From the NCBI GenBank assembly GCA_003999685.1, contig CP021224.1, positions 1,488,001-1,552,000 of the forward strand: a stretch of 64,000 nucleotides of DNA. Direction: 5' to 3'. Source of the stretch: Taiwanofungus camphoratus (lineage: Eukaryota > Basidiomycota > Agaricomycetes > Polyporales > Taiwanofungaceae). The notes below the pieces were generated by a model. The model ran no database searches and was not told the DNA's origin. It saw only the letters and a program-made list of their open reading frames with translations. Shown piece by piece: positions 3,362 to 49,348 of this stretch; positions within the stretch are counted from its first letter, which is position 1; each line of letters starts with the position of its first letter. The translations under genes were made by a program, and so were the position numbers.

Positions 3362-3365
3362 TTTC

Positions 3366-10500: not shown

Positions 10501-11340
10501 GTTCCTTGACGGGTTTTTCTTTCTCCTTGGCATGTTCCTTGATTGCTAATTCCGTTGCTGTGGTAAGTCGACCGATGTCATGCCTGACCTGCCAGATGAG
10601 ACCATTTTCGAGGCGACGATAGGCTCCGTCGAGAGGATATTTCTCCTCGGTAAGAGGTGCGTCTCGATGTGCTGGGTACGAGTCCTGTCTATACGTTGTG
10701 ATTCGATCGTCGCCTTCGATAAACGCTATGACCAATTCATCGTCGTCGATCGTTTCCATGGCCTGTTTGAGTGTGATGCCGTTTACCGAGTTTTCTTCCG
10801 AGGTCGAGGGATTTCTACCGTGGGTAGGATCGGGGACATGGTGTCCACAACTTCCCCATCCCCTTCATCCTCAATTTCTTCGACTGAGGGTTGGCGAGCT
10901 TTAATGATTTCTCTAGAGAGAGATTCCGCCGTTAACCTCTTGATCTCCAGTCGTTTAGCTCTGGTCTCCAGTAGGTTTTTCTTCCATTCCCTAGACTCTT
11001 CTAGAGTCATGCGGTGTTTAAGCTCCACTCGTCCCGTCTTCCAGTCGATGTCCGGGTTTTCCAGTTTGAGCCAGGTATGCCCGAAGATAATATCTTCATT
11101 TCCTATGCTGGCTACATAGGCTTTAACGAATCGGGGTTCTCCTCCTATTTTGTAGGAAAGAAGGGCCCTTTTTGTGATGGTAGCTTGCTTGTTAGCCGTC
11201 CTGTCCACATTGAATACGGGCATTGGGCGGGGTAAAGCCTCGGTGCGGATGTTGTGTGCTTTAACAAATCTGGGATGTATGAATATCCCAGAGGCACCAC
11301 TATCAATGAAGGCGCGCGCTTCGACGTCTTTTCGTCCCAC
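7592..11340 (-). mobile_element. Gypsy-B pol region (protease, RT, RNase H, integrase, chromodomain)
   Basis: Protease signature FIDSGASG near 11,300; reverse transcriptase with YMDDIL near 9,905; RNase H segment ETDASKFATGAV near 9,450; integrase HHCC finger ending CGTCQQMK near 8,720 and core SDRGPQFASKVF near 8,430; C-terminal chromodomain YRVRWKGYSSADDSWEPE near 7,690. The chromodomain places it among chromoviruses, whose chromodomains direct integration to particular chromatin. Broken, about four breaks. Confidence 0.93.
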
Positions 11341-11441
11341 AGTAATCGGAATGTGTAGAGCTCTTTCATTCCGGACTACTAGTACAACACGAGACAGTGA
11401 AACTGAAATGGGCAGCGGTTGCGTCGACTCACCCTGCCCCC

Positions 11442-12773: not shown

Positions 12774-12907
12774 TCGTTGTTCGATGTCGTAGAGAAGTGG
12801 TTCCTCTCCTCGTGTAGGTAACCCCCAATAGTCAGGATCGACGGTCCTGAGGTAAGACGTGGTAATGGATGTATGCCCACTAGATAGTACTAGGGGCGAC
12901 TTATTGC

Positions 12908-12919
12908 AAGTCTGATCTT
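12908..12919 (-). promoter_or_regulatory. Gypsy-B primer site matching its own LTR (self-primer)
   Basis: Immediately inside the 5' LTR the transcript reads AAGATCAGACTT. The reverse complement AAGTCTGATCTT lies in the LTR (13,097-13,108), about 36 bases after a TATATATA box, i.e. at the expected start of the RNA. This is the self-priming arrangement known for Tf1-type chromoviruses, where the 5' end of the RNA folds back to prime reverse transcription. Confidence 0.75.
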
Positions 12920-12920
12920 T

Positions 12921-13397
12921 TGATACAAATTGGTATCTCGGATCCTAAACGTTGCCTCACGCGTGAGGGCCTGACCACGATAGAAGGTGGCGAGGTCTTA
13001 TGGTCGATATAGACCGAGTGTCGTGAAGTCCGTAGACTCGAGCGAGTATCACTCAGATATGAGCGAGAGGATACAAGACACGAATATAGTGGTAACAAGA
13101 TCAGACTTAAGGTCCGACCTAAGCTAAAGTACATGCTATATATACAAGTACCTGGTATGCGCACGGACCAAGAACTACTCTAGGGCAGGAGGTCCGTAAT
13201 GTGGTACGACTGTAGATAAATAGAAAGTGGTACGATCCGGGCGTATTAGCAATACGTATGAGTGATGAGGAATGTGGTAAGCGGCCCGGATATGAGTCAG
13301 AGTCCTATGCGTAAGCGGGGCCGATCCGGGGCCCATACAGTAATAGTCCATATGTAAGCAATGGCCGTGGTAATGATAAGAAATAGAAATTGTTTCA
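12921..13397 (-). repeat. Gypsy-B 5' LTR
   Basis: 477 bases, TG...CA ends, TATATATA promoter element at about 13,137-13,144 on the minus strand. Pairs with 5,294-5,770. Confidence 0.93.
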
Positions 13398-14675
13398 TTC
13401 AGCCTGCTCTACTCGTGCGACTTGAGGCCTGACTTCACCTGAAGCATCCTGACCATTATTCTGACAACCCTTATCCATTTTCTGACATTCATGTAGCAGC
13501 AATGTTCATCCTACATGGTATTTCGAGTACGCCAACAGTTGCAGCACTGCAGCCAACAGCTTCGACAACTACTCCATCTGGCATAATCAAGACCGAAGAC
13601 ATCTCGACAATCATCGAGAGTTTGTCAAAGACCATTGCCACCCTTATTCAGCCCAGCAGTAGCAAATTGAACATAGCTGCTAGGCTCCCATCAACTCAAG
13701 GTGGCACAGAACAGACCTGCCATTTTTGTGGTGACCAGAACCATGGCATTCGAAGCTGCCTGCATGTAGAAGCAGACATAGCCGCCGGGAAATGCAAGTA
13801 TAACACCAAAGGAAAGGTCATATTTCCAAACGGTCTATTCATTCCACGCAGTATCTCTGGCATTACAATCTGTGACCGTCTCTACGAGTGGATTCATCGC
13901 AACATGCCAGCAGCACCTAGCCTGCTCTATGGGATCGATGATCAAGTCAGTGTCCAGACCTTCACACTCAACACAGAAGGCTGGATCGAAGTGCTCGAAA
14001 GGGAGCTCTTACAGCTTCGAAAGTGTAGAGAAGTCTTCGATGGCGTCGAAATTATACAGTGCAAGAAACCTACTACGACAGTGCCGCAGACTACAGAAGT
14101 TTCTGATGCGACTCCCATATCATGCAGTACCAACAACCCAGCACCTGACACAGCCAAGTCAGCCGCTCCTACCACAGTCCTGGTCCCAGCGACCTCAGCC
14201 AAACCTTCTTAGCCAAACCTTCGATGAATACCTCCACACCTTCAACGATTTCCACAGCTATAGTTCCCCCACCCACTTCATTGAACATACCTTCGACACA
14301 GCCCGCCGCTGCATCTACTCCGTCAGCGTCCCCAGTCCATCCCTTCCCAAATGCTCAAGACGTGACTTATGCTCCGCTGAACCTTTGAAACTTTGCTGCC
14401 CCACCCAAGTCTTTGAACAATAAGGGCAAGGACCCTGCGTACAAGACTATAGTTTCCATACACCAACCCAAGATAGCCGACAAAATCTTTGCATGCTCGA
14501 TGAGGTTCCCTCTCGTCATGTTAACACTGGAAGAACTCCTTTTGATCTCACCCGACGTACACAACAAGTATTGGAAAGCAGTTACACCGAAGCGAGTCTC
14601 AGTGAAACCTGTCACTTTGGTGCACATCATAGAGCTCACTGACAAAAACGAGGTAAAAGAGATGCACCAACTATC

Positions 14676-17600
14676 TTGTTCAGGCACAGTGCTACAGCCA
14701 GGAGCTACGGTCATACCCGACCCCTACAAAACCTACCTCAAGCACATCCTGATGGCAAGCATCCCGCCGACCTCACAGTTGCTCACGACTCGAACGCTAT
14801 CTGCTCGATCTACGCTCTAGTCAACAATAAAGAGCAGATTGAATACATCGTAGATCCAGGTTCACAAATTGTAGCAATGTCAGAGGAAGTTTGTTTAGGC
14901 CTGAAGCTTCTCTTCGACCCTATGATACAGTTAAACATACAGTCCGCCAACAGCGAAGTAGACCGATCTCTAGAGCTCGTACGCAACGTACCCTTCCAGA
15001 TTGGTGAAGTAGTATTATATCTTCAGGCTCTTGTTATCCAAAATGCAGCATACAACATCCTTCTCAGACAACCCTTCGATGTTCTTACACAAAGCATCGT
15101 AAAGAACTTCACAAACGAAGAACAAACTATCACGATAGTATGCCCCAACTCCAGCGAAACCATCACGATTCCTATGTATCCATGTGGAAAACCACACTTT
15201 TGACCGCAGCACCATAGAAGCTGCCCACACTCGGGTTTTCACGCTTTGAGGATTTGATACCCCATCGTCAAGGAGAAGCAGCCCTAGTCATCGACTACGA
15301 TGGGGCAAAATCTAGTATTTCCTTTATTGCTCCGATTGATTCTTTGATCCCTGACACAATCCAGTCTCTCTACCTTTCTGCTTGTTCTTCAGCCTCTGAA
15401 CATTTACAGTCTCTCTATGTCACAGACACCAAAACATCCAGTAAAGCTGTATTGAATGCTTTAACGTGGGCTTCGACACTTCTATTTTCAGCCCTCTTCG
15501 CCTCACTTCCTACCTCATCCTCTCCAAATTCTTCGACTCGTGCTCCGACCTTGCAGCTTACTAATTCCATTCTTCCAACATCTTCTACGTCAACTCATGA
15601 AACCTATACAGCTATCAAAAAGAAGTACAAACCAGTCACACTCAAGACTCATCCCGTTTTAGGAGCGGTCCCCGAGCGGTTTTGAATAGTTCGAGACATT
15701 AAGGGGGACCTCCTTTTTATTATGCCAGTACTCTCAACCAATCCCCCACTCTTCAAACCTACTGGCCAATATACGTGTGAACACTTCAACATCACGGAGA
15801 AGCTTCACGACGGCACCTTCCTGCTCCCCGATGAGCGTCAAGTCCTACACCACTTTATGTGCTTGCACAATGAAGCCTTCACATGGACCGACAAAGAAAG
15901 AGGATGCTTCAAGCCAGAGTACTTCCCTCTCATAGATTTTTCCATCATACCACATATGCCCTGGGTGCAGAAGAATATCCCAATTCCACCTGGGATCTAC
16001 AATCAAGTCTGCACAGTGATCAAGCGAAAGATCGACACAGACATCTACAAACCTTTAAACTCATCATATCAATCACATTGGTTCTGCATAGTAAAGAAAG
16101 ATGGGAAATCTTTTCAACTCATACACTCCCTTGAGCCCCTTAACGCAGTTATCATACAGCATTCTGGCATACCACCTACGCCAGAATATCTAGCAGAACA
16201 GTTTGGAGGAAGTCCATGCAGTGGCATGCTCGACCTTTACGTAGGCTACAACGAACGACTCATTGTGGAGTCTTCGAGAGACCTTACAACCTTCCAAACA
16301 CCCTACGGTGCCATGCGTCTAGTCACCCTTCCAATGGGTTGGATGAACTCTGTTCCTATATTCCACAATGACATCACGTACATTCTACAACCCAAAATTC
16401 CGCACTCGACAGTGCCCTACATTGATGATATTCCGGTCAAAGGCCCCGCATCAGACTACAATGACGAGTGGCTGCCCTCGAATGCTGGAATTCGAAGATT
16501 TGTGTGGGAACACTTCGAAAACCTGAATTGAATCGTTACTCAAATGTGCTATGCAGGAGGAACCTTCTCCAGTGTAAAGAGTGTTCTAATCTCGCGTGAG
16601 ATCATGGTCATAGGACACCGGTGTACTCCTGAAGGATGGTTGCCCAATGACTCTCGAGTCTCAGCAATACGTAACTGGGGTCCCTGCGCTACACTCTCTG
16701 ACATTCAAGTGTTCCTAGGAACCATCGGAGTTGTTCGAATATTCATATGCAACTTCATCCATCATGTCGATGTCCTCGTACGCCTTACGAGGAAGGACAT
16801 AGAGTTTGAATTCAGTCCTGAGCAAATCACAGCACAAGAAGACCTCAAGGACGCTCTACTCTCATCCCCCGCACTTCGCGCTATCAACTACGATTCCCCA
16901 TCCCCTGTAATCCTCGCAGTCAACACTTCATTCATAGCAGTCGGATACCACCTTTGTCAGTGCGATGAAGCCAACACTCGAGTCCACTACTACAACTGTT
17001 TCGGCTCTATCACACTCAATGATCATGAGCAAAGGTTCTCCCAACCTAAACTCGAGATCTATGGTCTATTCTGCGCCCTTCGATCCCTTCGACTTTACCT
17101 TATTGGCATTTGAAACCTCATTGTAGAAGTCGACGCTCGCTACATCAAAGGCATGCTCAAGAACCCAGATATCGCCCCCAGTGCAAGTATCAACTGCTGG
17201 ATAGTAGCCATCCTCACGTTCCACTTCACAATAGTACATGTTCCTGATACGATGCATGGCCCAGATGGTCTCTCTCAATGTACGCCCCAGCTGGGCAATG
17301 TCATCGTAGAAGAATCCGACGAAGACTTCGACGACTGGATTGATCACATGCACTCCTTCGTCCATCAGATACTACCTCCCCCTCCTACCCCCGCAATGCC
17401 CATTCTAACCAACACAGAAGCTGAGGACAGCTCCAAATTCAAAAAGGAGGAGGATAGCTATGAAATAGTCCCATGTTCAGAGCAAGTGCAGCTCGCAGAC
17501 GCAAGACTCGACAAAGTCCTCAAATTTCATCGAACACTTTTGAAGCCAGAAGACATTTTGGACAGCGAATACGAAGGCTTTCTCAAGTACTGCTTGCTGT

Positions 17601-18871
17601 TCTTTCTGGATAACGACACTCTATGGCGAAAGGACAGCCACAGCACACACAAGTTGGTCGTCAAGCCTGGTGATCGACTTTGAATCCTTCGAGAATGTCA
17701 TGACCACACAGCCCATCAGGGGATCTACACAATGAAAGTTTTCATCAACGAACAATTCTGATGGCCATTCCACTATGCAGACATAGCATGGTTCGTACAA
17801 ACGTGCCATCTATGCCAGTCTCATCAAGTACAGCAGATTCTTATCCCCCCTACCGTTGCAATGCCCGCTCCTATCTTCGCCAAGATACATATCGATACAA
17901 TGCATATGCCCACGTCTGGTGAATACAAGTATCACATACAAGGAAGATGCTCTCTCATGATGTACCTGGAATTTCAAATGCTTCAAAAAGAAACAGTGTC
18001 CGCACTTGCTGACTGGATCTTCAAAGACATTCTCTGCTGATGGGGCACACTCAGCGAGATCATTATGGACAACAGTGCAGTGTTTATCAAAGTGGCAGAC
18101 TATCTTTTGGAGAAATACCACATCAACCACATTCCAATCAGCAGCTACAACTCAAGAGCAAATGGACTCATTGAACGACCACACTTTAGCACAAGACAAG
18201 CTTTATTCAAAACTGCCAACGGAGATGAGAAGAAATGGTCTCACGCAGTGTACTTTGTATTCTGGTCCAAATGCATTACAACTTGACAATGCATGGGTTG
18301 CTCACTGTACTTTGCAGTCATGGGCACTCATCCTCTCATCTCTCTTGACATCGTAGAAGCCATGTACCTTCAGCCCCCTCCTGCTTCAATTCTTTCTATG
18401 ACAGATCTCATCACACGCAGAGCAATCACGCTCTAGATGTGTGTAGAGCAAATAGCTGAACTCAAATCAAAGGTCTACGAAGCGCGTTGAATGGCAGCAC
18501 TTCGCTTCAAAAGGGAACATGAGCACTTGATCAAGGACTTCAATTTCAAATGTGGAGATTTAGTGCTCGTACAAAACACAAAGATTGAGAAGTCCCTGAA
18601 TAGCAAGATGCGCCCCCACTACCTAGGCCCCCTCATTGTTGTATCACGCAACAAGGGCAGCATGTACATTGTCTGCGAACTGGATGGCACAGTCTTTGAC
18701 CGGCCCATCGCAGCATTCCGAGTCATCCCCTACTTCACTCAACAATCCATCCCCATCCCAGACAACCTGGAAGACGTCTCAACTGAGCATCTTCGAGAAC
18801 TTGAACGATCCAATTCGCTCGGTGATGACGACAATGACATCATCGAAGACGTCGAAGAAAGTGAGCAGTAG
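14676..18871 (+). mobile_element. Gypsy-A copy A1 pol region
   Basis: Protease-like segment with VDPGSQIVAMSEEV near 14,855; reverse transcriptase with TLPMGWMNSVPIFHND and YIDDIPVKGP near 16,330-16,445; RNase H segment DHEQRFSQPKLEIYGL near 17,025; integrase zinc finger and core (MDNSAVFIKVADYLL, NSRANGLIERP) at 17,690-18,290; a C-terminal module RPHYLGPLIVV (GPY/F-like) near 18,615 but no chromodomain. A different Gypsy lineage from B and C. Fossil with roughly ten breaks. It lies in the perfect palindrome arm and is mirrored at 34,524-38,719. Confidence 0.9.
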
Positions 18872-19251
18872 AAGCCCCTGTCTCTCTACTTGTACTACTA
18901 TGCGTACTTTCTACAGTCTCTTTTCTCTTATAATATGTTTGATTCAATTTTTTTTATTTTGAGCTAGCACCATTCTATTTGTACCATACACGATTCAACT
19001 CGACTAAGTCACAATATTGCTTCGATATTCTACAAATGCCTTGATTTGAACGTTGTGCAGAGGCTCACACTCTATGAGTCCTCCTAGGCAGTGATGACAT
19101 ACTGAGCCTACCAATGTCACCAATTTTTTTACCAAGTCCTTCAATATGTTCTTCGAATGCTTCTATTTCCTTCTATCACACATTTTCACATTGGGATGAA
19201 GAATGATTAATTTTCTATAGTACAAGACTACAACCTGCCGAAAGACAATGA

Positions 19252-20060
19252 CTACTCCTCGTCACCCGACTCTGGCCCAACTACAAATCCACCGCCCACA
19301 ATTGCCTCTTGTTTCATACACATCAGCTCCATGTCAAGGTCATGGAGCATGACACGATGAAATGTGATGTTCACATGCTCTGCCCGAATCATGCAGATGG
19401 TGGTGTGGGATTGCTCATCAAGGTCAAGCAAATCCAGGTCGTCTTGTTTCAGACCCAGGCAACTACCACCATCCAGAGGGACCTTGACAGTGGGATGAGG
19501 AGGCTGTGTCACCCGACAGCGCTTCAATCCACTGGCCTCCCCTGTTGAAGGACCAGTGGAAGGGGCATGCGCTGCAAAAAGAGAGGTTAGAAGCAAAGGC
19601 ATAAAAACTAACAAAAAAGTACTTACCTTGCTTCTTTCTGCCACCATGCATCTTCTTTGTCTTCCCCAAAACTGAGATGCCACCGAAATAACATCTCTGC
19701 ACTGTCTGTATGCAGCGGTCGCATGCCGTAGCACCCTCCAACCAGGCGCACTCAACGGTTTGGGTACGGGTGTGACATTGATTGCACTACAAAAGAAGCA
19801 TTAGCCAAATCGAGGACTTACAACATACAAATGCATACCTTCTCCCCTGCCTGCTGCTTCCACTGCGCAACTTGTGCCCAGTCAGTCTCAGGTGCCACTG
19901 AGCCATCGTGATTGCCCTTCAACGCCTTTTTATGAATCGGTCAGTAAACAAACAGAAAGAACAAAGCTCTAGCTACTTACAGCCACACTATCCCCCTCAT
20001 CCTCGTGAGCCCACTTCTTACCTTTTGAAGGAGCGGTGGCTCCTTTGAGGCACACAATCC
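19252..20060 (-). CDS. Antisense zinc-cluster gene in A1 (gene X, copy 1), 5' truncated
   Basis: Downstream of A1 pol and opposite to it. Exons from 5' to 3': about 20,060-19,980 (GKKWAHEDEG), about 19,930-19,840 (VAPETDWAQVAQWKQQAGEK), about 19,790-19,625 with the cysteine cluster CNQC...C...CDRC...C (CX2CX8CX8CX2CX6C, close to the fungal Zn2Cys6 pattern), and about 19,573-19,252 ending PESGDEE. GT-AG introns separate them. Copy A2 has a longer version between pol and the 3' LTR at 42,477-44,401. The upstream end runs into the tandem repeat at 20,071. Possible DNA-binding or regulatory protein; function unknown. Confidence 0.7.
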
Positions 20061-20070
20061 AGTAAGAAAA

Positions 20071-20350
20071 CCCCATTGCAACAGGCCAATAAATGCTGAG
20101 TTTGGCCTGTTGTGAATGGGCCGTCCGACATTGGCTGATCATTGAAACAAGCCCCGTTGCAACAGGTCAGCTGGGGATGGCACTATCCCATTGCAACAGG
20201 TCAGCCAGGGATGGGACCAGCCCATTTCAATGGGTCAGCCAGGCAGGGTACCTACCTGTTGAAACAGGTCGGCCAGGGATGAAACCTACCCATTGCAACG
20301 GGTCGGCCGGCGATGGACCCATCCCGTTGCAACGGGTCAGCTGGCCATTT
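20071..20350. repeat. 34-base tandem repeat with palindromic core
   Basis: About eight degenerate units of roughly 34 bases. Each has a core related to CCCGTTGCAACGGG, itself a perfect 14-base palindrome in the last unit, followed by TCAGCCAGGGATGG-like sequence. Lies between the truncated gene X copy and the acidic-protein gene. Mirrored at 33,045-33,324. Confidence 0.8.
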
Positions 20351-20510
20351 CTTATTTCCAGGGATGCCCCCTGGCCCTTGCAGCAGCCAGGTCAAGTCTG
20401 ATGCCTAAATGAAGGCCTCACTGTTGGGTAAAGCTTTGATCAATTACAGCCATGTTCAGATATACATGAAGTTCCAAGAACAGGAATGTAGATATGATTA
20501 CATTTTGTAC

Positions 20511-21168
20511 CTTTCTAGTACATGTGCAACAGAGTCCACCCCCAAAGCATTGAAGTCCCTCATGTCAGTCAGCCTTTGCAAAGAATCAGCAGATTTGACC
20601 TGCTCCACCCTGAGATGCTGATAAGCATATACCAACTGAGCGGCAGCTTGGGTCTCAGTGTGCTTATCAGCCCATCTCAGCAAGTCTGCAGAAAAGACAG
20701 ATTCTACATAAATGATGAGTGAACACAAAGGCAGAAGTTGGATGAGAGAACCATGATTGAGAACTCACTATTATCACTGGGGTCTGGCCCTTGAGCTTGT
20801 CCCCCTGCTGAAAATTGTGCCTGTGCATGCCCATGTACTATTAGAATCATGGAAAAGGGGAAAAAGGACTTATCTACCTGAGCCTGACCCTCATCCACCT
20901 CCATCTGATCTGCATGCTGCCCAGCATCAGAGCTGAGCTCTATGACATCCCCCTGCCCCTGCCCCTCCTCATCTTCCTCCTCCTCCTCCTTATCTTCCTC
21001 CTCCTCCTCCTCCTCCTCCTCCTCCTCATCATCATCATCATCATCCTCATCACTATCTGTCTCATACTGCAACCCCTCTCCAGAGCTCTGTCCCTCACTG
21101 CCAGATCCATCCCCAGAAGAGCCACTACCAGAAGAGGGGCGGGACACACAATATACTTCTTCACATTT
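20511..21168 (-). CDS. Acidic coiled protein, unknown (partial)
   Basis: I do not recognise it. Three exons can be proposed with GT-AG introns that keep frame: 21,168-20,878 (SRPSSGSGSSGD then a long Asp/Glu tract, then DVIELSSD and QMEVDEGQAQ), 20,820-20,769 (GGQAQGPDPSDN) and 20,685-20,511 (LLRWADKHTETQAAAQLV to DSVAHVLER, probably helical), followed by a GTACAA donor. No start codon is evident: the frame runs into the junction with the opposite-strand gene X fragment at about 21,206. Downstream exons, if any, would cross the 34-base repeat. Mirrored at 32,227-32,884. Confidence 0.5.
20972..21049. repeat. Trinucleotide microsatellite (CTC/ATC)n
   Basis: A run of CTC and ATC triplets coding the Asp/Glu tract on the minus strand. 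Its mirror at 32,346-32,423 has the same length and order. Confidence 0.9.
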
Positions 21169-21205
21169 TCAGTGAGAGGGATGACCTCCACGTCATTGTC
21201 ATACA

Positions 21206-21619
21206 TGATGCCGAGGAGCGTGTCGAGGGAACCGTCCCTTCTTTAAAGGGGAAGAAGCGGGCTTGGCCGGATGATGGCGGTGATGCGAAGGTAAGTGGTC
21301 TTTTGCTTGTTCCTTTCTTTTTCTTGTCACTAACCATGTCTTGAAAGCTGTTGACAGGTGGTTGTGACATCTCAGCGGCACCCGAGACTGACCGGGTATG
21401 TGTTGTGTGCATGAAACAGCAGGACAGTGAAAAGGTACGTAAGCTATGACCATTGTTATTTTCTTAGGCTAACACTTCTTCATAGTGCGATCAATGTCGA
21501 ACCTGCACTCAGACTGTTGAGTGCATCTGGGCGGAGGGCACCACCACGTGCGATCGGTGCATCCAGGTGGCCCAGGGCTGTTATTTTGGCAGTTTTTGGG
21601 TTCTGGGTCATACAAAGAA
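21206..21619 (+). pseudogene. Gene X fragment (copy 2), cut by Gypsy-C
   Basis: Part of the same zinc-cluster family as 19,252-20,060 and 42,477-44,401. Segments: EGTVPSLKGKKRAWPDD up to an intron donor near 21,290, SAAPETDRVCVVCMKQQ, then CDQC...C...CDRC...C and CYFGSFWVLG. It is closer in this part to the A2 copy than to the A1 copy. The 5' part is missing at a junction with the acidic gene, and the reading stops where the LTR of Gypsy-C copy C1 begins at 21,620. Mirrored at 31,776-32,189. Confidence 0.7.
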
Positions 21620-24600
21620 TGATACAAGCTGGTATCAACAACCGGGAAGCCTCGAACGTGAGGACCTGGCTACTAGAGATAGTAGTGAGGCTTTATGGAC
21701 ACTGTGTATATCCTCCTGGGCGAAGTCGATAGAGTCGAGCGAGTACTCAGGTACGAAGCGAGAGGTTGCAAGATACGAGTATAAGATTGCTAGTGGTAAC
21801 TAGCTACTTGGTAACCAGATCGAACTTAAGGTCCGACCTACAAAGTACAGGGCCTTATATACGTATTCTACTCTGCGCGCGGACCATAGCACGTGGTCTA
21901 AGAATCAGCATGAGTAAGCGTAAGTAAGGCGATATGAGTCATCAGGCCGTATTAGCAATCAGTAAGCGTAAGACGGAATGTGTCAGCGGGGCCCAATATG
22001 AGTCGGTGTCCATGAGTAACCGGGGCCCGTCCAGGGCCCGTACCATAAGCAGCGATGAGTCAAGATGCTGTGTGAAGAAGCTGGGCCCACCCGAGGCCCG
22101 TTCTAGAAGCGAAAGGTCATGGGACCGATCCGAGGTCCGACCGATAAGATATGCGATGAAAGAAATTGTATCATTACCCCCCTACTTATGATTGAACGCC
22201 TGGTCAATCAACTAAACTCCAATGGGGATGCATCGAGTCTCTCCAAGTTGAACTTTTTAGCAACCGTTGACGAACTTGACGAACTTCCCAGGACGACCTT
22301 GAAGACTTTTCTGGAAGTAGCGAGCGGGTGTTTCACCGCGACCTATAAGGGATGACCCTTGAACCCATAGGGGATGACCCCTCCAACCGTGAGGATCCTT
22401 TCACCTCGAACTTCACAGTTTTATGACATGTCAGTTGTGCGTTGTAGTTTAACGACATGCACGGTCGTTCCCTCGCAGTTTAATGACATGCAGAAACCAC
22501 TCTGGATGGTACGGCGGTTCCGGGTCGTAGGCGAATGCGTAATGGATGGTGGTGCATTCGTGCGTAAGGTGCCCAGGCGACGGGTGACTACAGCGGAGAC
22601 ATTTGTAGTCGGGGCACGTCCTGTGCGAGTGGTAAGTGCTACCACAGCAGTAACACGGACCGTAGCGAGTGAACGAGGATGAAGGACTGTTTGACTGAGA
22701 CATGCGAATGATGAGTGGGGTGAAAATGCGACTGATTGCACTCATCGTAAATTCTTGCGCTGCTTATATGCGTTTAGCAGCTCGTCTGCAGTACCGGCTA
22801 AGTTCTCTTCTGGTTCCCATGAGTCATCGGCGGATGAGTAACTTTTCCACCTGACTCGATATTCTCAGCGATTCCTTTGGCGATTCTCACGATGTCCGAC
22901 CAGAGCTTCGACTTTGTAGTTATCTTCGCCGCTGATAAGCTCTGGCGGTGGTTCCATATAGTTAGGACCATGGGTGTCCGTCTCGGTGTATGGCGAAAGA
23001 AGTGCGGTGTGGAAAACAGGGTGCACTCGCCATGTCGTCGGGAGTTTCAGCTTGTAAGACACCGGTCCTAGAATGTCCGTGATTTCGAAGGGGCCTTCGC
23101 ATTTGGGAGCCAACTTCCTCATCGGGTATGGCAGCTTTAGATTTCGTGAGTCTAGCCATACCTTTTGTCCTTTGCGGAAACCTGTTCCTTTGGGTTTCAC
23201 GCGTCTTGCTAACACCGCCTGTGCTAGTTCCATTGCTGAGTGTGCGTCTTCCCGAATCTTCTGCAAGTTCCGCAGTCGATAAGCGGTGCCCGGTGTGTCC
23301 GATCTGGGGTGTACAATGGGAATCCCTCGAGGTTCATAGCCTATCATGACCTTGAAGGGTGACGCCTTGATCGTAGAATGCTCACATGAGTTGTGAGCGA
23401 ATTGCGCTGAGCCCAGCAGTGATGACCAATTGTCCAGGTTGTTGCTTGTGAAGCATCGCAGGTAGATTTTCAATTCCTGGTTGACTCGTTCCGTCTCTTC
23501 ATCCGTTTGAGGGTGGAACACTGTGCTCATGGTCGACTTGACTCTGGTCATACGGCAGAGCTCCTGGAATACCTTTGATGCGAATTGTGGTCCTCGATCG
23601 CTAATGATCTTGTTTGGAAGACCAAACCACTTGTATACCTCTCAATATAATGCTTCGGCTGTCCCTGATGTGTCAATCGTTTTGTTGCATGGAATGAAAA
23701 TTACCCCCTTCGTAAGGTCGTGGTCCACAACGACCAAAATTGAATTGTAGCCTTCTGAAGTCGGCAAATCCATGATGAAATCACAGCAGAATGTGCTGAA
23801 TGGGGTGGCGTACTGCGCGGATTTGATCGGGAGTAGGGCCGGTTGGGTGGGGTGCGTGTTAACTTTCATTTGCTGACAAGTGCCGCAACCTTTGACGTAT
23901 CGTGTGACAAAATCAGCCATTCCAGGCCACCAGTAGTCTCATCGAATAGACGAGAGAGTCTTCTGAATTCCAGAGTGGCCGGTGGAGGGGAGGTCGTGGT
24001 AATTTGAGACCGTTTGTCATCGTAAGTCCTCGTCCAGGGGAATATACACCCAATTATTATAGAGGAGGTCACTGTCTTGAATCGTTCAGTGGTCATTTGA
24101 GCTGTTTTGTGCATTACGCATCCCTTCCGTATACACCAAGTCATTTACGCATGCTTCCACGATGGAAGCCCTTAGACTCGTGTTGATTGCTGCTGCCCAT
24201 ACCTTGTCTGGTAGGACAGTTACATCCTGGTTGCCTGATGAACTGTCATCATGGTTGGGGCATCGGGAGAGCGCGTCACTTTGCATCATTTGCGTGCCCG
24301 GGACATGAATTAACCTGTAGTCGAATTTGAACAAGCGGAGAGCCCATCGCACTTGCCTTCAATTCAGATTCTGTGCCGTTTTCCAGTACGTCAGATTCTT
24401 GTGGTCGCTATAGATCGTGACTGGATACGGGCTTCCGATGAGAAGGTGACTCCATTCGTTGAGTCCCCTCATGATGCCCATGAGTTCTTGGTCATAGACG
24501 TTGTAATTTCGCTCTGCTGGCGTCATGCTCTGGGAAATATAGCCACATGGATGCCAATCGCTGTTGTCGTCCTTTTGCCTGAGGACGGCGCCCGTGGTGA

Positions 24601-26833: not shown

Positions 26834-29800
26834 GTGGCGCATCGGGAATATTCGTGCATTCACAATTTGTTAAGGAACACAAGCTACGGACTGAGGCGCT
26901 ACCACGCCCAATACCAGTGTTCAATGTGGACGGCACTGCCAACAAGCAAGCGCTCATCAACAGATGAGCCCTGCTGTCGTACAAAATCAGGAATGAGCCC
27001 CGGTTTGTCAAAGCATACGTGGCCAGTACGAAGACGTCATCTTCAGACATACATGGCTCAAACTCAAGAACCCCAGTATCGACTGGAAGGGAGGTCGTGT
27101 GGAATTGAAGCATCACATAACCCTGCAAGAATCTCGAGAGTGGAAGAAGGGGATCATCGCGCAACGAGTAGCGCGACTGGAGCTAAAGAAACTAGCCGAA
27201 CGAGAACAGGAAGAAGCCCTGGATCCCGTGCTAGACTATGAGGTAAACTGGTCAGCACCCCCTTGTCCACAGGTAGTGGCATTCCTTGCCGAACGAGAAA
27301 AATGCCTCAAGCAACAATGGCAGCCCACCATTGAGGAGGTAGAGGATAAAGGAGACTTTGAGGTGATCGACACCATGTCTCCTGTCTTACCAACGACAGA
27401 AATGTCTAGGCAGACAGCACACCGTGACATCCCAGTCGCACCCCTGGTAGAAGAATCGGTCAACAGTATCACATTGGATCAGGCAATGGAAACGATCGAT
27501 GACGATGAACTGGTCATAGCGTTCATCAAAGGAGACGATCGAATCACGATGTACGGACGGGACTCATACCTGGTGTATCAAGACGCCCTGCTTACGGAAA
27601 AGACGTACCCCCTCGACAAAACCTATTGTCATCTCGAAAACGGTCTCATCTGGCAGGTCAAGCACGACATCAGTTGACTCACCACGTTCACAGAACTCGC
27701 TATCAAGGAGCACACTAAGAAAGAAGAGAAACCGGTCATGGAACTCGTCCCCGAGTACCTCCATGATCTCCTCCCAGTGTTCGACAAAGCCAAGGCAGCG
27801 AGACTTCCCAGACATTCGGAGTTCGACCACAAAATAAATCTCAAGCCGGATTTTGAGGACTTCAAGCAGTCGACGTATTCTCTCAACCAGGATCAATGAG
27901 CGGAACTGGACAAGTTCCTCAGAGAGAATATAGAGAAGGGGTACATCTGACCGTCCAAATCGCCACTCGCAAGTCCATTCTTCTTCGTGGATAAGAAGGA
28001 CGGCGGATACCGACCATGCCAGGACTACAGGAAACTCAATGAGGGAACGATCAAAGACAGATACCCTCTCCCCCTCGTAACGGAACTTCTGGAACGCCTC
28101 AATAACACCACAATCTTCACAAAGATGGACCTTCGTCAGGGATACAATAACCTTCGCATCAAGGAAGGTGACAAATGGAAAGCGGCTTTCGGTGTTCCAG
28201 CAGCTGGGAAAGGACCTCCCTCGTTCTACGAACCCCTGATAATGTCCTTCGGGATGTGCAACTCACCGGCAACGTTCCAACGGATGATGAACATGGTCTT
28301 CGCAGACATGCTCAAGGAAGGATGGTTGGCAATCTATATGGATGACATCCTTATCTACTCGACAGACCCCGAGGAGCATAAGAAGCGAACACGGCGAGTT
28401 ATCGAACGACTTAGAGATACCGATCTGTATCTCAAACCGGAAAAATGCAAATTCAACGTGCAAGAGGTCGAATTCTTAGGCATGATCATCAGACCCGGAC
28501 AACTCGCCATGGACCCAGTCAAGGTAGCCAGCATCAAGGACTGGCCAATACCTAAGAACCTCAGGGAGGTTCGGTCATTCATCGGATTTGGGAACTTCTA
28601 CCGCCGGTTCATACACAGCTTCTCGCATCTGGCCCAGCCTTTGATCTCGCTTACGTGAAAGGACGTCAAATGGCACTGGGGCGATGAACAGCAGGAAGCT
28701 TTCGAGGCATTGAAGAAAGCCTTCCTGGAACAACCGGTTTTACAGATGCCTGACCCAGAGAAGCCGTTCGCGCTAGAAACAGATGCATCGAAGTTCACCA
28801 CGGGCGCCGTCCTCAGGCAAAAGGACGACAACAGCGATTGGCATCCATGTGGCTATATTTCCCAGAGCATGACGCCAGCAGAGCGAAATTACAACGTCTA
28901 TGACCAAGAACTCATGGGCATCATGAGGGGACTCAACGAATGGAGTCACCTTCTCATCGGAAGCCCGTATCCAGTCACGATCTATAGCGACCACAAGAAT
29001 CTGACGTACTGGAAAACGGCACAGAATCTGAATTGAAGGCAAGTGCGATGGGCTCTCCGCTTGTTCAAATTCGACTACAGGTTAATTCATGTCCCGGGCA
29101 CGCAAATGATGCAAAGTGACGCGCTCTCCCGATGCCCCAACCATGATGACAGTTCATCAGGCAACCAGGATGTAACTGTCCTACCAGACAAGGTATGGGC
29201 AGCAGCAATCAACACGAGTCTAAGGGCTTCCATCGTGGAAGCATGCGTAAATGACTTGGTGTATACGGAAGGGATGCGTAATGCACAAAACAGCTCAAAT
29301 GACCACTGAACGATTCAAGACAGTGACCTCCTCTATAATAATTGGGTGTATATTCCCCTGGACGAGGACTTACGATGACAAACGGTCTCAAATTACCACG
29401 ACCTCCCCTCCACCGGCCACTCTGGAATTCAGAAGACTCTCTCGTCTATTCGATGAGACTACTGGTGGCCTGGAATGGCTGATTTTGTCACACGATACGT
29501 CAAAGGTTGCGGCACTTGTCAGCAAATGAAAGTTAACACGCACCCCACCCAACCGGCCCTACTCCCGATCAAATCCGCGCAGTACGCCACCCCATTCAGC
29601 ACATTCTGCTGTGATTTCATCATGGATTTGCCGACTTCAGAAGGCTACAATTCAATTTTGGTCGTTGTGGACCACGACCTTACGAAGGGGGTAATTTTCA
29701 TTCCATGCAACAAAACGATTGACACATCAGGGACAGCCGAAGCATTATATTGAGAGGTATACAAGTGGTTTGGTCTTCCAAACAAGATCATTAGCGATCG

Positions 29801-31775
29801 AGGACCACAATTCGCATCAAAGGTATTCCAGGAGCTCTGCCGTATGACCAGAGTCAAGTCGACCATGAGCACAGTGTTCCACCCTCAAACGGATGAAGAG
29901 ACGGAACGAGTCAACCAGGAATTGAAAATCTACCTGCGATGCTTCACAAGCAACAACCTGGACAATTGGTCATCACTGCTGGGCTCAGCGCAATTCGCTC
30001 ACAACTCATGTGAGCATTCTACGATCAAGGCGTCACCCTTCAAGGTCATGATAGGCTATGAACCTCGAGGGATTCCCATTGTACACCCCAGATCGGACAC
30101 ACCGGGCACCGCTTATCGACTGCGGAACTTGCAGAAGATTCGGGAAGACGCACACTCAGCAATGGAACTAGCACAGGCGGTGTTAGCAAGACGCGTGAAA
30201 CCCAAAGGAACAGGTTTCCGCAAAGGACAAAAGGTATGGCTAGACTCACGAAATCTAAAGCTGCCATACCCGATGAGGAAGTTGGCTCCCAAATGCGAAG
30301 GCCCCTTCGAAATCACGGACATTCTAGGACCGGTGTCTTACAAGCTGAAACTCCCGACGACATGGCGAGTGCACCCTGTTTTCCACACCGCACTTCTTTC
30401 GCCATACACCGAGACGGACACCCATGGTCCTAACTATATGGAACCACCGCCAGAGCTTATCAGCGGCGAAGATAACTACAAAGTCGAAGCTCTGGTCGGA
30501 CATCGTGAGAATCGCCAAAGGAATCGCTGAGAATATCGAGTCAGGTGGAAAAGTTACTCATCCGCCGATGACTCATGGGAACCAGAAGAGAACTTAGCCG
30601 GTACTGCAGACGAGCTGCTAAACGCATATAAGCAGCGCAAGAATTTACGATGAGTGCAATCAGTCGCATTTTCACCCCACTCATCATTCGCATGTCTCAG
30701 TCAAACAGTCCTTCATCCTCGTTCACTCGCTACGGTCCGTGTTACTGCTGTGGTAGCACTTACCACTCGCACAGGACGTGCCCCGACTACAAATGTCTCC
30801 GCTGTAGTCACCCGTCGCCTGGGCACCTTACGCACGAATGCACCACCATCCATTACGCATTCGCCTACGACCCGGAACCGCCGTACCATCCAGAGTGGTT
30901 TCTGCATGTCATTAAACTGCGAGGGAACGACCGTGCATGTCGTTAAACTACAACGCACAACTGACATGTCATAAAACTGTGAAGTTCGAGGTGAAAGGAT
31001 CCTCACGGTTGGAGGGGTCATCCCCTATGGGTTCAAGGGTCATCCCTTATAGGTCGCGGTGAAACACCCGCTCGCTACTTCCAGAAAAGTCTTCAAGGTC
31101 GTCCTGGGAAGTTCGTCAAGTTCGTCAACGGTTGCTAAAAAGTTCAACTTGGAGAGACTCGATGCATCCCCATTGGAGTTTAGTTGATTGACCAGGCGTT
31201 CAATCATAAGTAGGGGGGTAATGATACAATTTCTTTCATCGCATATCTTATCGGTCGGACCTCGGATCGGTCCCATGACCTTTCGCTTCTAGAACGGGCC
31301 TCGGGTGGGCCCAGCTTCTTCACACAGCATCTTGACTCATCGCTGCTTATGGTACGGGCCCTGGACGGGCCCCGGTTACTCATGGACACCGACTCATATT
31401 GGGCCCCGCTGACACATTCCGTCTTACGCTTACTGATTGCTAATACGGCCTGATGACTCATATCGCCTTACTTACGCTTACTCATGCTGATTCTTAGACC
31501 ACGTGCTATGGTCCGCGCGCAGAGTAGAATACGTATATAAGGCCCTGTACTTTGTAGGTCGGACCTTAAGTTCGATCTGGTTACCAAGTAGCTAGTTACC
31601 ACTAGCAATCTTATACTCGTATCTTGCAACCTCTCGCTTCGTACCTGAGTACTCGCTCGACTCTATCGACTTCGCCCAGGAGGATATACACAGTGTCCAT
31701 AAAGCCTCACTACTATCTCTAGTAGCCAGGTCCTCACGTTCGAGGCTTCCCGGTTGTTGATACCAGCTTGTATCA
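26834..31775 (+). mobile_element. Inverted copy of Gypsy-C C1
   Basis: Protease to 3' LTR of C1 in plus orientation, LTR at 31,222-31,775, zinc-knuckle ORF at 30,650-30,946. Base-for-base mirror of 21,620-26,561. Fossil with the same breaks as its mirror, showing that the duplication or conversion came after decay. Confidence 0.92.
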
Positions 31776-32189
31776 TTCTTTGTATGACCCAGAACCCAAA
31801 AACTGCCAAAATAACAGCCCTGGGCCACCTGGATGCACCGATCGCACGTGGTGGTGCCCTCCGCCCAGATGCACTCAACAGTCTGAGTGCAGGTTCGACA
31901 TTGATCGCACTATGAAGAAGTGTTAGCCTAAGAAAATAACAATGGTCATAGCTTACGTACCTTTTCACTGTCCTGCTGTTTCATGCACACAACACATACC
32001 CGGTCAGTCTCGGGTGCCGCTGAGATGTCACAACCACCTGTCAACAGCTTTCAAGACATGGTTAGTGACAAGAAAAAGAAAGGAACAAGCAAAAGACCAC
32101 TTACCTTCGCATCACCGCCATCATCCGGCCAAGCCCGCTTCTTCCCCTTTAAAGAAGGGACGGTTCCCTCGACACGCTCCTCGGCATCA
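31776..32189 (-). pseudogene. Mirror of gene X fragment (copy 2)
   Basis: Exact reverse complement of 21,206-21,619, next to the mirrored C1 LTR. Confidence 0.7.
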
Positions 32190-32226
32190 TGTATGACAAT
32201 GACGTGGAGGTCATCCCTCTCACTGA

Positions 32227-32884
32227 AAATGTGAAGAAGTATATTGTGTGTCCCGCCCCTCTTCTGGTAGTGGCTCTTCTGGGGATGGATCTGGCAGTGA
32301 GGGACAGAGCTCTGGAGAGGGGTTGCAGTATGAGACAGATAGTGATGAGGATGATGATGATGATGATGAGGAGGAGGAGGAGGAGGAGGAGGAGGAGGAA
32401 GATAAGGAGGAGGAGGAGGAAGATGAGGAGGGGCAGGGGCAGGGGGATGTCATAGAGCTCAGCTCTGATGCTGGGCAGCATGCAGATCAGATGGAGGTGG
32501 ATGAGGGTCAGGCTCAGGTAGATAAGTCCTTTTTCCCCTTTTCCATGATTCTAATAGTACATGGGCATGCACAGGCACAATTTTCAGCAGGGGGACAAGC
32601 TCAAGGGCCAGACCCCAGTGATAATAGTGAGTTCTCAATCATGGTTCTCTCATCCAACTTCTGCCTTTGTGTTCACTCATCATTTATGTAGAATCTGTCT
32701 TTTCTGCAGACTTGCTGAGATGGGCTGATAAGCACACTGAGACCCAAGCTGCCGCTCAGTTGGTATATGCTTATCAGCATCTCAGGGTGGAGCAGGTCAA
32801 ATCTGCTGATTCTTTGCAAAGGCTGACTGACATGAGGGACTTCAATGCTTTGGGGGTGGACTCTGTTGCACATGTACTAGAAAG
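32227..32884 (+). CDS. Mirror of acidic protein gene (partial)
   Basis: Exons 32,227-32,517, 32,575-32,626 and 32,710-32,884, identical to the minus-strand copy at 20,511-21,168. The start is not determined. Confidence 0.5.
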
Positions 32885-33044
32885 GTACAAAATGTAATCA
32901 TATCTACATTCCTGTTCTTGGAACTTCATGTATATCTGAACATGGCTGTAATTGATCAAAGCTTTACCCAACAGTGAGGCCTTCATTTAGGCATCAGACT
33001 TGACCTGGCTGCTGCAAGGGCCAGGGGGCATCCCTGGAAATAAG

Positions 33045-33324
33045 AAATGGCCAGCTGACCCGTTGCAACGGGATGGGTCCATCGCCGGCCGACCCGTTGC
33101 AATGGGTAGGTTTCATCCCTGGCCGACCTGTTTCAACAGGTAGGTACCCTGCCTGGCTGACCCATTGAAATGGGCTGGTCCCATCCCTGGCTGACCTGTT
33201 GCAATGGGATAGTGCCATCCCCAGCTGACCTGTTGCAACGGGGCTTGTTTCAATGATCAGCCAATGTCGGACGGCCCATTCACAACAGGCCAAACTCAGC
33301 ATTTATTGGCCTGTTGCAATGGGG
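33045..33324. repeat. Mirror of 34-base tandem repeat
   Basis: Reverse complement of 20,071-20,350. Confidence 0.8.
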
Positions 33325-33334
33325 TTTTCTTACT

Positions 33335-34143
33335 GGATTGTGTGCCTCAAAGGAGCCACCGCTCCTTCAAAAGGTAAGAAGTGGGCTCACGAGGATGAGG
33401 GGGGTAGTGTGGCTGTAAGTAGCTAGAGCTTTGTTCTTTCTGTTTGTTTACTGACCGATTCATAAAAAGGCGTTGAAGGGCAATCACGATGGCTCAGTGG
33501 CACCTGAGACTGACTGGGCACAAGTTGCGCAGTGGAAGCAGCAGGCAGGGGAGAAGGTATGCATTTGTATGTTGTAAGTCCTCGATTTGGCTAATGCTTC
33601 TTTTGTAGTGCAATCAATGTCACACCCGTACCCAAACCGTTGAGTGCGCCTGGTTGGAGGGTGCTACGGCATGCGACCGCTGCATACAGACAGTGCAGAG
33701 ATGTTATTTCGGTGGCATCTCAGTTTTGGGGAAGACAAAGAAGATGCATGGTGGCAGAAAGAAGCAAGGTAAGTACTTTTTTGTTAGTTTTTATGCCTTT
33801 GCTTCTAACCTCTCTTTTTGCAGCGCATGCCCCTTCCACTGGTCCTTCAACAGGGGAGGCCAGTGGATTGAAGCGCTGTCGGGTGACACAGCCTCCTCAT
33901 CCCACTGTCAAGGTCCCTCTGGATGGTGGTAGTTGCCTGGGTCTGAAACAAGACGACCTGGATTTGCTTGACCTTGATGAGCAATCCCACACCACCATCT
34001 GCATGATTCGGGCAGAGCATGTGAACATCACATTTCATCGTGTCATGCTCCATGACCTTGACATGGAGCTGATGTGTATGAAACAAGAGGCAATTGTGGG
34101 CGGTGGATTTGTAGTTGGGCCAGAGTCGGGTGACGAGGAGTAG
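33335..34143 (+). CDS. Mirror of antisense zinc-cluster gene X copy 1
   Basis: Exact inverted copy of 19,252-20,060, with the last exon ending PESGDEE at 34,143. Confidence 0.7.
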
Positions 34144-34523
34144 TCATTGTCTTTCGGCAGGTTGTAGTCTTGTACTATAGAAAATTAATCATTCTTCATC
34201 CCAATGTGAAAATGTGTGATAGAAGGAAATAGAAGCATTCGAAGAACATATTGAAGGACTTGGTAAAAAAATTGGTGACATTGGTAGGCTCAGTATGTCA
34301 TCACTGCCTAGGAGGACTCATAGAGTGTGAGCCTCTGCACAACGTTCAAATCAAGGCATTTGTAGAATATCGAAGCAATATTGTGACTTAGTCGAGTTGA
34401 ATCGTGTATGGTACAAATAGAATGGTGCTAGCTCAAAATAAAAAAAATTGAATCAAACATATTATAAGAGAAAAGAGACTGTAGAAAGTACGCATAGTAG
34501 TACAAGTAGAGAGACAGGGGCTT

Positions 34524-37500
34524 CTACTGCTCACTTTCTTCGACGTCTTCGATGATGTCATTGTCGTCATCACCGAGCGAATTGGATCGTTCAAGTTCTC
34601 GAAGATGCTCAGTTGAGACGTCTTCCAGGTTGTCTGGGATGGGGATGGATTGTTGAGTGAAGTAGGGGATGACTCGGAATGCTGCGATGGGCCGGTCAAA
34701 GACTGTGCCATCCAGTTCGCAGACAATGTACATGCTGCCCTTGTTGCGTGATACAACAATGAGGGGGCCTAGGTAGTGGGGGCGCATCTTGCTATTCAGG
34801 GACTTCTCAATCTTTGTGTTTTGTACGAGCACTAAATCTCCACATTTGAAATTGAAGTCCTTGATCAAGTGCTCATGTTCCCTTTTGAAGCGAAGTGCTG
34901 CCATTCAACGCGCTTCGTAGACCTTTGATTTGAGTTCAGCTATTTGCTCTACACACATCTAGAGCGTGATTGCTCTGCGTGTGATGAGATCTGTCATAGA
35001 AAGAATTGAAGCAGGAGGGGGCTGAAGGTACATGGCTTCTACGATGTCAAGAGAGATGAGAGGATGAGTGCCCATGACTGCAAAGTACAGTGAGCAACCC
35101 ATGCATTGTCAAGTTGTAATGCATTTGGACCAGAATACAAAGTACACTGCGTGAGACCATTTCTTCTCATCTCCGTTGGCAGTTTTGAATAAAGCTTGTC
35201 TTGTGCTAAAGTGTGGTCGTTCAATGAGTCCATTTGCTCTTGAGTTGTAGCTGCTGATTGGAATGTGGTTGATGTGGTATTTCTCCAAAAGATAGTCTGC
35301 CACTTTGATAAACACTGCACTGTTGTCCATAATGATCTCGCTGAGTGTGCCCCATCAGCAGAGAATGTCTTTGAAGATCCAGTCAGCAAGTGCGGACACT
35401 GTTTCTTTTTGAAGCATTTGAAATTCCAGGTACATCATGAGAGAGCATCTTCCTTGTATGTGATACTTGTATTCACCAGACGTGGGCATATGCATTGTAT
35501 CGATATGTATCTTGGCGAAGATAGGAGCGGGCATTGCAACGGTAGGGGGGATAAGAATCTGCTGTACTTGATGAGACTGGCATAGATGGCACGTTTGTAC
35601 GAACCATGCTATGTCTGCATAGTGGAATGGCCATCAGAATTGTTCGTTGATGAAAACTTTCATTGTGTAGATCCCCTGATGGGCTGTGTGGTCATGACAT
35701 TCTCGAAGGATTCAAAGTCGATCACCAGGCTTGACGACCAACTTGTGTGTGCTGTGGCTGTCCTTTCGCCATAGAGTGTCGTTATCCAGAAAGAACAGCA
35801 AGCAGTACTTGAGAAAGCCTTCGTATTCGCTGTCCAAAATGTCTTCTGGCTTCAAAAGTGTTCGATGAAATTTGAGGACTTTGTCGAGTCTTGCGTCTGC
35901 GAGCTGCACTTGCTCTGAACATGGGACTATTTCATAGCTATCCTCCTCCTTTTTGAATTTGGAGCTGTCCTCAGCTTCTGTGTTGGTTAGAATGGGCATT
36001 GCGGGGGTAGGAGGGGGAGGTAGTATCTGATGGACGAAGGAGTGCATGTGATCAATCCAGTCGTCGAAGTCTTCGTCGGATTCTTCTACGATGACATTGC
36101 CCAGCTGGGGCGTACATTGAGAGAGACCATCTGGGCCATGCATCGTATCAGGAACATGTACTATTGTGAAGTGGAACGTGAGGATGGCTACTATCCAGCA
36201 GTTGATACTTGCACTGGGGGCGATATCTGGGTTCTTGAGCATGCCTTTGATGTAGCGAGCGTCGACTTCTACAATGAGGTTTCAAATGCCAATAAGGTAA
36301 AGTCGAAGGGATCGAAGGGCGCAGAATAGACCATAGATCTCGAGTTTAGGTTGGGAGAACCTTTGCTCATGATCATTGAGTGTGATAGAGCCGAAACAGT
36401 TGTAGTAGTGGACTCGAGTGTTGGCTTCATCGCACTGACAAAGGTGGTATCCGACTGCTATGAATGAAGTGTTGACTGCGAGGATTACAGGGGATGGGGA
36501 ATCGTAGTTGATAGCGCGAAGTGCGGGGGATGAGAGTAGAGCGTCCTTGAGGTCTTCTTGTGCTGTGATTTGCTCAGGACTGAATTCAAACTCTATGTCC
36601 TTCCTCGTAAGGCGTACGAGGACATCGACATGATGGATGAAGTTGCATATGAATATTCGAACAACTCCGATGGTTCCTAGGAACACTTGAATGTCAGAGA
36701 GTGTAGCGCAGGGACCCCAGTTACGTATTGCTGAGACTCGAGAGTCATTGGGCAACCATCCTTCAGGAGTACACCGGTGTCCTATGACCATGATCTCACG
36801 CGAGATTAGAACACTCTTTACACTGGAGAAGGTTCCTCCTGCATAGCACATTTGAGTAACGATTCAATTCAGGTTTTCGAAGTGTTCCCACACAAATCTT
36901 CGAATTCCAGCATTCGAGGGCAGCCACTCGTCATTGTAGTCTGATGCGGGGCCTTTGACCGGAATATCATCAATGTAGGGCACTGTCGAGTGCGGAATTT
37001 TGGGTTGTAGAATGTACGTGATGTCATTGTGGAATATAGGAACAGAGTTCATCCAACCCATTGGAAGGGTGACTAGACGCATGGCACCGTAGGGTGTTTG
37101 GAAGGTTGTAAGGTCTCTCGAAGACTCCACAATGAGTCGTTCGTTGTAGCCTACGTAAAGGTCGAGCATGCCACTGCATGGACTTCCTCCAAACTGTTCT
37201 GCTAGATATTCTGGCGTAGGTGGTATGCCAGAATGCTGTATGATAACTGCGTTAAGGGGCTCAAGGGAGTGTATGAGTTGAAAAGATTTCCCATCTTTCT
37301 TTACTATGCAGAACCAATGTGATTGATATGATGAGTTTAAAGGTTTGTAGATGTCTGTGTCGATCTTTCGCTTGATCACTGTGCAGACTTGATTGTAGAT
37401 CCCAGGTGGAATTGGGATATTCTTCTGCACCCAGGGCATATGTGGTATGATGGAAAAATCTATGAGAGGGAAGTACTCTGGCTTGAAGCATCCTCTTTCT

Positions 37501-38719
37501 TTGTCGGTCCATGTGAAGGCTTCATTGTGCAAGCACATAAAGTGGTGTAGGACTTGACGCTCATCGGGGAGCAGGAAGGTGCCGTCGTGAAGCTTCTCCG
37601 TGATGTTGAAGTGTTCACACGTATATTGGCCAGTAGGTTTGAAGAGTGGGGGATTGGTTGAGAGTACTGGCATAATAAAAAGGAGGTCCCCCTTAATGTC
37701 TCGAACTATTCAAAACCGCTCGGGGACCGCTCCTAAAACGGGATGAGTCTTGAGTGTGACTGGTTTGTACTTCTTTTTGATAGCTGTATAGGTTTCATGA
37801 GTTGACGTAGAAGATGTTGGAAGAATGGAATTAGTAAGCTGCAAGGTCGGAGCACGAGTCGAAGAATTTGGAGAGGATGAGGTAGGAAGTGAGGCGAAGA
37901 GGGCTGAAAATAGAAGTGTCGAAGCCCACGTTAAAGCATTCAATACAGCTTTACTGGATGTTTTGGTGTCTGTGACATAGAGAGACTGTAAATGTTCAGA
38001 GGCTGAAGAACAAGCAGAAAGGTAGAGAGACTGGATTGTGTCAGGGATCAAAGAATCAATCGGAGCAATAAAGGAAATACTAGATTTTGCCCCATCGTAG
38101 TCGATGACTAGGGCTGCTTCTCCTTGACGATGGGGTATCAAATCCTCAAAGCGTGAAAACCCGAGTGTGGGCAGCTTCTATGGTGCTGCGGTCAAAAGTG
38201 TGGTTTTCCACATGGATACATAGGAATCGTGATGGTTTCGCTGGAGTTGGGGCATACTATCGTGATAGTTTGTTCTTCGTTTGTGAAGTTCTTTACGATG
38301 CTTTGTGTAAGAACATCGAAGGGTTGTCTGAGAAGGATGTTGTATGCTGCATTTTGGATAACAAGAGCCTGAAGATATAATACTACTTCACCAATCTGGA
38401 AGGGTACGTTGCGTACGAGCTCTAGAGATCGGTCTACTTCGCTGTTGGCGGACTGTATGTTTAACTGTATCATAGGGTCGAAGAGAAGCTTCAGGCCTAA
38501 ACAAACTTCCTCTGACATTGCTACAATTTGTGAACCTGGATCTACGATGTATTCAATCTGCTCTTTATTGTTGACTAGAGCGTAGATCGAGCAGATAGCG
38601 TTCGAGTCGTGAGCAACTGTGAGGTCGGCGGGATGCTTGCCATCAGGATGTGCTTGAGGTAGGTTTTGTAGGGGTCGGGTATGACCGTAGCTCCTGGCTG
38701 TAGCACTGTGCCTGAACAA
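34524..38719 (-). mobile_element. Inverted copy of Gypsy-A pol
   Basis: Mirror of 14,676-18,871: integrase at the left, RT near 37,000, protease near 38,500. Fossil, with the same breaks as its mirror. Confidence 0.9.
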
Positions 38720-38819
38720 GATAGTTGGTGCATCTCTTTTACCTCGTTTTTGTCAGTGAGCTCTATGATGTGCACCAAAGTGACAGGTTTCACTGAGACT
38801 CGCTTCGGTGTAACTGCTT

Positions 38820-49346: not shown

Positions 49347-49348
49347 AA

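Follow-up and report, generated by a model that had tools for sequence, protein, structure and literature searches.

A near-identical palindrome inside a retrotransposon block of Taiwanofungus camphoratus, probably left by a recent inverted duplication that started at a single broken chromosome end

The window, i.e., the whole stretch of 64,000 nucleotides analysed here, spans positions 1,488,001-1,552,000 of contig C5 of Taiwanofungus camphoratus and was searched against its own genome of 33,194,378 bases in 15 contigs. It contains a large palindrome, carried by a contig of 2.82 Mb that extends far past both flanks. The palindrome is set in a repeat-saturated block of about 95 kb (~1.476-1.572 Mb of C5), which consists nearly entirely of repeats; to the left of this block lie 60 kb without such repeats (1.412-1.472 Mb) and to the right the repeats are patchy, as judged within 264 kb only. 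Some 51 kb to the left of the window, an ORF agrees with a T. camphoratus protein at 383 of 389 aligned residues. Neither RNA families at the gathering threshold nor bacterial-type tRNA genes were found within the 64-kb window. The palindrome and its adjoining elements comprise:

13,400-14,419, plus strand: left outer flank, element X; further X parts at 3,362-4,029 and 5,012-5,290, split by insertions
14,420-26,561, plus strand: left arm, probably the original (on modest statistics)
21,620-26,833, minus strand: TE1, Gypsy-type, cut off by the palindrome centre; second copy at 26,834-31,775, plus strand
26,562-26,833, no strand: spacer, 272 bp, single-copy, colinear with TE1
26,833-26,834, no strand: central inversion junction; strict microhomology 0 bp, or 4-bp TGGC plus one extra G
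26,834-38,975, minus strand: right arm, the probable copy; differs from the left arm at 2 of 12,142 bp
38,975-38,976, no strand: outer junction, where X of the arm meets X', another member of its family
38,976-40,929, minus strand: right outer flank, element X', in opposite orientation and 84-86% identical to the left X, in three pieces
5,294-13,399, minus strand: separate LTR element inserted in the left X only; LTRs identical at 472 of 479 positions
48,792-55,844, plus strand: TE1b, full-length TE1 relative with a reverse transcriptase domain, the reference for reading the central junction; LTRs identical at 521 of 555 positions

The arms are nested retrotransposons plus other repeats, and both junctions lie inside retrotransposons. 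Read from its outer end, the left arm is composed of the Gypsy-type X (to ~20,048), which encodes an RNase H-like domain of reverse transcriptases, a ~1-kb repeat (~20,057-21,137), an inverted piece resembling the ends of X (21,211-21,619) and TE1 (from 21,620). A relative of TE1 at 7,592-9,331, ~80% identical, carries an integrase and a chromodomain, from which we infer a chromodomain for TE1 itself.

The preliminary description gave arms at 14,576-26,561 and 26,834-38,819 that were reverse complements without mismatch or indel. The coordinates and the lack of indels over 11,986 bp hold, but there is one mismatch, T at 19,991 against C in the complement of 33,404. An 8-base homopolymer common to both arms is indeed identical (T8 at 18,948), as is a CCT-type microsatellite, which measures 64 bp by TRF (20,964-21,027) against the 78 bases first given. 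The near-identical tract is longer than was first noted: 14,420-26,561 matches 26,834-38,975 with 2 mismatches in 12,142 bp and no indel, the second mismatch lying at 14,575/38,820. Divergence between the arms is thus 1.6e-4 (95% CI 2e-5 to 6e-4). Past the tract edge at 14,419/38,976, homology goes on to 13,400/39,981 at 86.2% identity (139 mismatches and 2 gaps totalling 14 bases), and the switch falls inside one 100-bp bin. The edge is real, since a run of 155 bp free of mismatches would have a probability of only 1e-10 if divergence were 13.8%.

Identity of this kind does not arise by chance. When 3.9 kb of the arm (17,684-21,619) were searched against the genome, 100% matches were found only at the two arms, the best others reaching 90% (among the 40 candidates scored of 176). 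The same families recur throughout the block in many copies, and one could imagine that these elements had become nested twice, independently and in opposite orientation. Yet the arms share the same nesting breakpoints and 100% identity over several elements, with the next best copies at 90% or less among the candidates scored. Separate insertions are therefore unlikely; collinearity through the nested breakpoints contradicts them, and their probability is practically negligible.

The arms were described as possibly extremely recent, and this is the reading that fits best: 2 differences in 12,142 bp separate them, whereas the two LTRs of the neighbouring element differ at 7 of 479 positions and those of TE1b at 34 of 555. 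If rates are alike, both elements would be far older than the arm duplication. Recency would account for the near-identity of the arms. No function is required.

Two older inverted pairs surround nearly the same centre as the palindrome:

431-3,354, no strand: left member of an older inverted pair; partner at 45,832-48,797; 98.8% identity of aligned bases, 97.2% with gaps
56,378-61,552, minus strand: right member of an older inverted pair, carrying fungal-kinase pieces and a partial S repeat; 97.5% identical to its partner beyond the window, C5:1482563-1487716

An earlier inverted duplication may thus have occurred at the locus. The joint between the kinase unit and the S repeat is present in both members of the second pair, while other matches cross it by at most 2 bases (among the 40 candidates scored of 292). 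The intervening X parts, with their 84-86% identity, are at odds with a single simple palindrome of older date. The unit with kinase pieces (PF17667) has long matches in both orientations at at least seven places on C5 (94-100%, itself included) and at least four on C9 (92%), again among 40 candidates scored of 292, and is possibly mobile or segmentally duplicated. Its copies on C5 are:

1482563-1487716
1562152-1564868
1586146-1590615
1760904-1763927
1811090-1814836
1885935-1889771
56,378-61,552 of the window

Many S repeats of ~1 kb, or pieces of them, some as inverted pairs, lie at the breakpoints of the older pairs (2,339-3,361, 4,030-5,011, 40,930-41,166, 44,643-46,853 and 55,843-57,081).

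Such a surrounding bears on the proposal that the palindrome is itself older and that arm-to-arm gene conversion maintains the identity of its arms, as in Y-chromosome palindromes or in the homogenised inverted repeats of some yeast centromeres; conversion would stop at 14,420 where X and X' become too diverged. The sharp edge does coincide with the start of diverged homology, and the collinear outer inverted pairs (97-99%, almost concentric with the palindrome) suggest that inversion symmetry has a history here. G+C-biased change is a usual, though not strictly defining, sign of gene conversion, and no G+C enrichment was found in the 1.8 kb of TE1 examined (25,000-26,833). Against 18 other copies pooled, the arm has G or C where the copy has A or T 944 times and the reverse 1533 times, and against TE1b the counts are 1097 and 1427; these counts are unpolarised and make for a weak test. 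The arms also lack indels, and conversion is not needed to explain their near-identity. The analogy with Y-chromosome palindromes that had been raised is thus dispensable, and conversion seems to us quite unlikely. Y-chromosome-type palindromes have large near-identical arms, a short spacer and gene conversion, and a palindrome of this type with gene conversion is reportedly found in willow. The present locus is alike in its large near-identical arms and short spacer, but its arms consist of retrotransposon and repeat DNA, not of kept genes, with no sign of conversion in the G+C test of 1.8 kb of TE1.

A bolder reading would take the nested inverted structure as the centromere core of this chromosome, repeatedly rebuilt by inverted duplication and homogenised by arm-to-arm recombination. 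In the available part of the T. camphoratus genome paper, the putative centromere is each chromosome's longest ORF-free region, mostly containing retrotransposons. In the accessible portion of a study of Candida tropicalis (PMC4741521), all seven centromeres have inverted repeats of 2-5 kb around a unique core of 2-5 kb. As far as that portion goes, the two cases are alike in being fungal inverted repeats that are more similar within than between loci, whereas the structure described here has a 272-bp retrotransposon spacer and occurs at one locus. If true, the centromere reading would provide a retrotransposon-built mushroom counterpart of the yeast inverted-repeat centromeres; it is, in our estimation, very improbable.

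How the palindrome was formed is best approached through its two junctions. An inverted duplication by fold-back or sister fusion is expected to exit via a homologous repeat in opposite orientation, and the X/X' hybrid at 38,975/38,976 is such an exit: the left X (plus strand) and the right X' (minus strand) are 85-86% identical over ~1 kb beyond the arms. The two are not clear sisters. For the right flank, 11 other copies outscore the left X, while X' is the best match of the left flank by a small margin (1158 vs 1121 bits); apart from each other, the closest copies are C12:1073k and C3:1443k for the left flank and C10:991k, C10:1508k and C8:1734k for the right flank. In the 401 bp around the edge, the 38 X copies besides the two present here are only 77-88% identical, so that the edge block is not specially conserved. 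Copies whose relative similarity favours the left flank over the right also tend to resemble the arm's X more closely (rho 0.58, p 0.0014), in a test run on 27 of the 29 shared copies, two having been dropped, and on copies that are non-independent. Plain correlations over n=29 are not significant either for the arm and the left flank (rho 0.21, p 0.28) or for the arm and the right flank (rho -0.28, p 0.15), and significance in this comparison lies in the difference between flanks only. These similarities lend modest support to a left arm that would be the original and a right arm that would be the copy, with a hybrid element at 38,975/38,976.

At the centre, TE1 continues rightward out of the left arm and across the spacer as far as 26,833, where it reverses at the equivalent of 26,561. 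An unduplicated spacer between the inverted copies, as expected of a duplication by fold-back or sister fusion, is thus present, and the fact that it is one single-copy, TE1-colinear piece of 272 bp supports an end that was folded or trimmed. The short inverted homology expected of fold-back priming proper was not found upon direct reading of the TE1 loci. Indeed, the native sequence after the spacer is TGGCC in all 19 TE1 loci read (18 others and TE1b). A 5-bp microhomology, GTGGC/GCCAC, was suggested by BLAST overlaps at 26,834-26,838, and it was discarded because the native sequence in the 19 loci is without the G. The TGGC match is unremarkable once a one-base offset is permitted; random folds of TE1 give at least 5 bp in 0.5% and at least 4 bp in 1.6% of cases. 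With no strict microhomology, fold-back priming loses ground to sister-chromatid end joining, although either would yield the same product. The predicted fold of spacer and stem was set aside as evidence, as it merely mirrors the given arms. With a 601-bp query across the junction, full coverage was obtained from a single place in the genome, the palindrome itself (among the 40 candidates scored of 137).

A structure of this kind could also be produced by the assembly, as the preliminary description had pointed out. A fold-back chimeric read would make the assembler retrace the arm, from which another misjoin, via X/X', would let it out again. Large identical inverted repeats are a classic source of assembly trouble, and the locus lies within repeats. 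In the part of one survey available to us, foldback reads make up ~0.55-0.6% of nanopore genomic reads, which counts for an artefact, but virtually none or 0.03% of the reads in three PacBio data sets, which counts against it (PMC12870357). The published T. camphoratus monokaryon genomes were obtained with PacBio and Illumina, which also counts against it, though they may not be the same assembly as that used here. Two independent errors would be required, one of them at a hybrid of copies that are only ~86% identical; moreover, the arms differ at two bases and the 2.82-Mb contig runs far on both sides. A fold-back read leaves unexplained both the second junction, a retrotransposon hybrid embedded in that contig, and the two base differences, and we consider an artefact unlikely.

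Altogether, the palindrome is probably the product of an inverted duplication that took place recently, starting from a single broken chromosome end within the retrotransposon block. A double-strand break would have occurred inside TE1, and the end would then have either folded back, priming synthesis with a 272-nt loop, or joined its sister chromatid after losing 272 nt. Copying would have proceeded outward along the left arm, about 12 kb leftward, after which the new end in X would have recombined with the oppositely oriented X' on the distal side to restore one linear chromosome, the sequence between the break and X' being lost. The abrupt drop of identity inside X favours this scheme, while the centre without microhomology and the nominal rank of X' as best match of the left flank count against it.

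The type of mechanism is already known, and it is the scar that is unusually readable. The locus appears to behave as a foldback inversion does. It is not assigned to fold-back proper, since short inverted homology was looked for at the centre and was not found. In the available parts of two reports on S. cerevisiae (PMC7467729, PMC10622511), foldback inversions likewise combine an inverted duplication from one end, a single-copy loop and an exit by opposite homology or repeat on the same or another chromosome. According to the same part of the first report, most are resolved by homology, most commonly via ura3-52 and URA3, which lie in opposite orientation on a single arm, others via Ty elements or other repeats, and loops are larger in MRE11- and SAE2-proficient strains (median 36 nt, some reaching thousands) (PMC7467729). 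A template-switch version without a dicentric is proposed, and not ruled out, in the accessible text of the second (PMC10622511). In contrast to these inversions, the present case concerns a natural locus with no selection or mutant, where the event itself was not observed, the exit lies between copies ~86% identical and no clear hairpin stem is seen at the centre.

Human fold-back inverted duplications, as presented in the part of PMC3907307 at hand, also have an unduplicated spacer, and hybrid repeats are found at 3 of 21 junctions. Outside repeats, 13 of 18 junctions have 2-8 bp of microhomology and the other five have insertions (PMC3907307, same part). The sequenced human spacers there measure 766-70,466 bp, whereas the spacer here is 272 bp and comes with no microhomology; the human duplications are terminal and this palindrome is interstitial (PMC3907307).

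If real, the palindrome is a fresh natural inverted duplication with both junctions readable to the base or nearly so, a break in one retrotransposon and an exit in another, and it would indicate that retrotransposon copies ~14% diverged can heal such an event outside laboratory mutants. Should it be an artefact, it exposes a pitfall of a fungal assembly at chromosome scale. Literature titles and abstract openings yielded no large natural palindrome from a mushroom, which is a weak negative, and the strings 'palindrom' and 'inverted' have 0 occurrences in the main text of PMC8865532.

Further observations concern the repeats themselves. An ORF with an SPT5 KOW5-like match (2.6e-7) lies at 62,939-63,484 (minus strand), within the repeat block. 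The ~1-kb repeat of the arms (20,057-21,137 and 32,258-33,338) has at least four other copies at 85-90% identity among the candidates scored and is strongly depleted in CpG, with an observed/expected ratio of 0.16 against ~0.6-1.0 in the adjoining elements. Between the X flanks (13,400-14,419 and 38,976-39,981), 129 transitions, of which 38 fall at CpG, were counted against 10 transversions, a strong bias that perhaps reflects methylation-linked decay.
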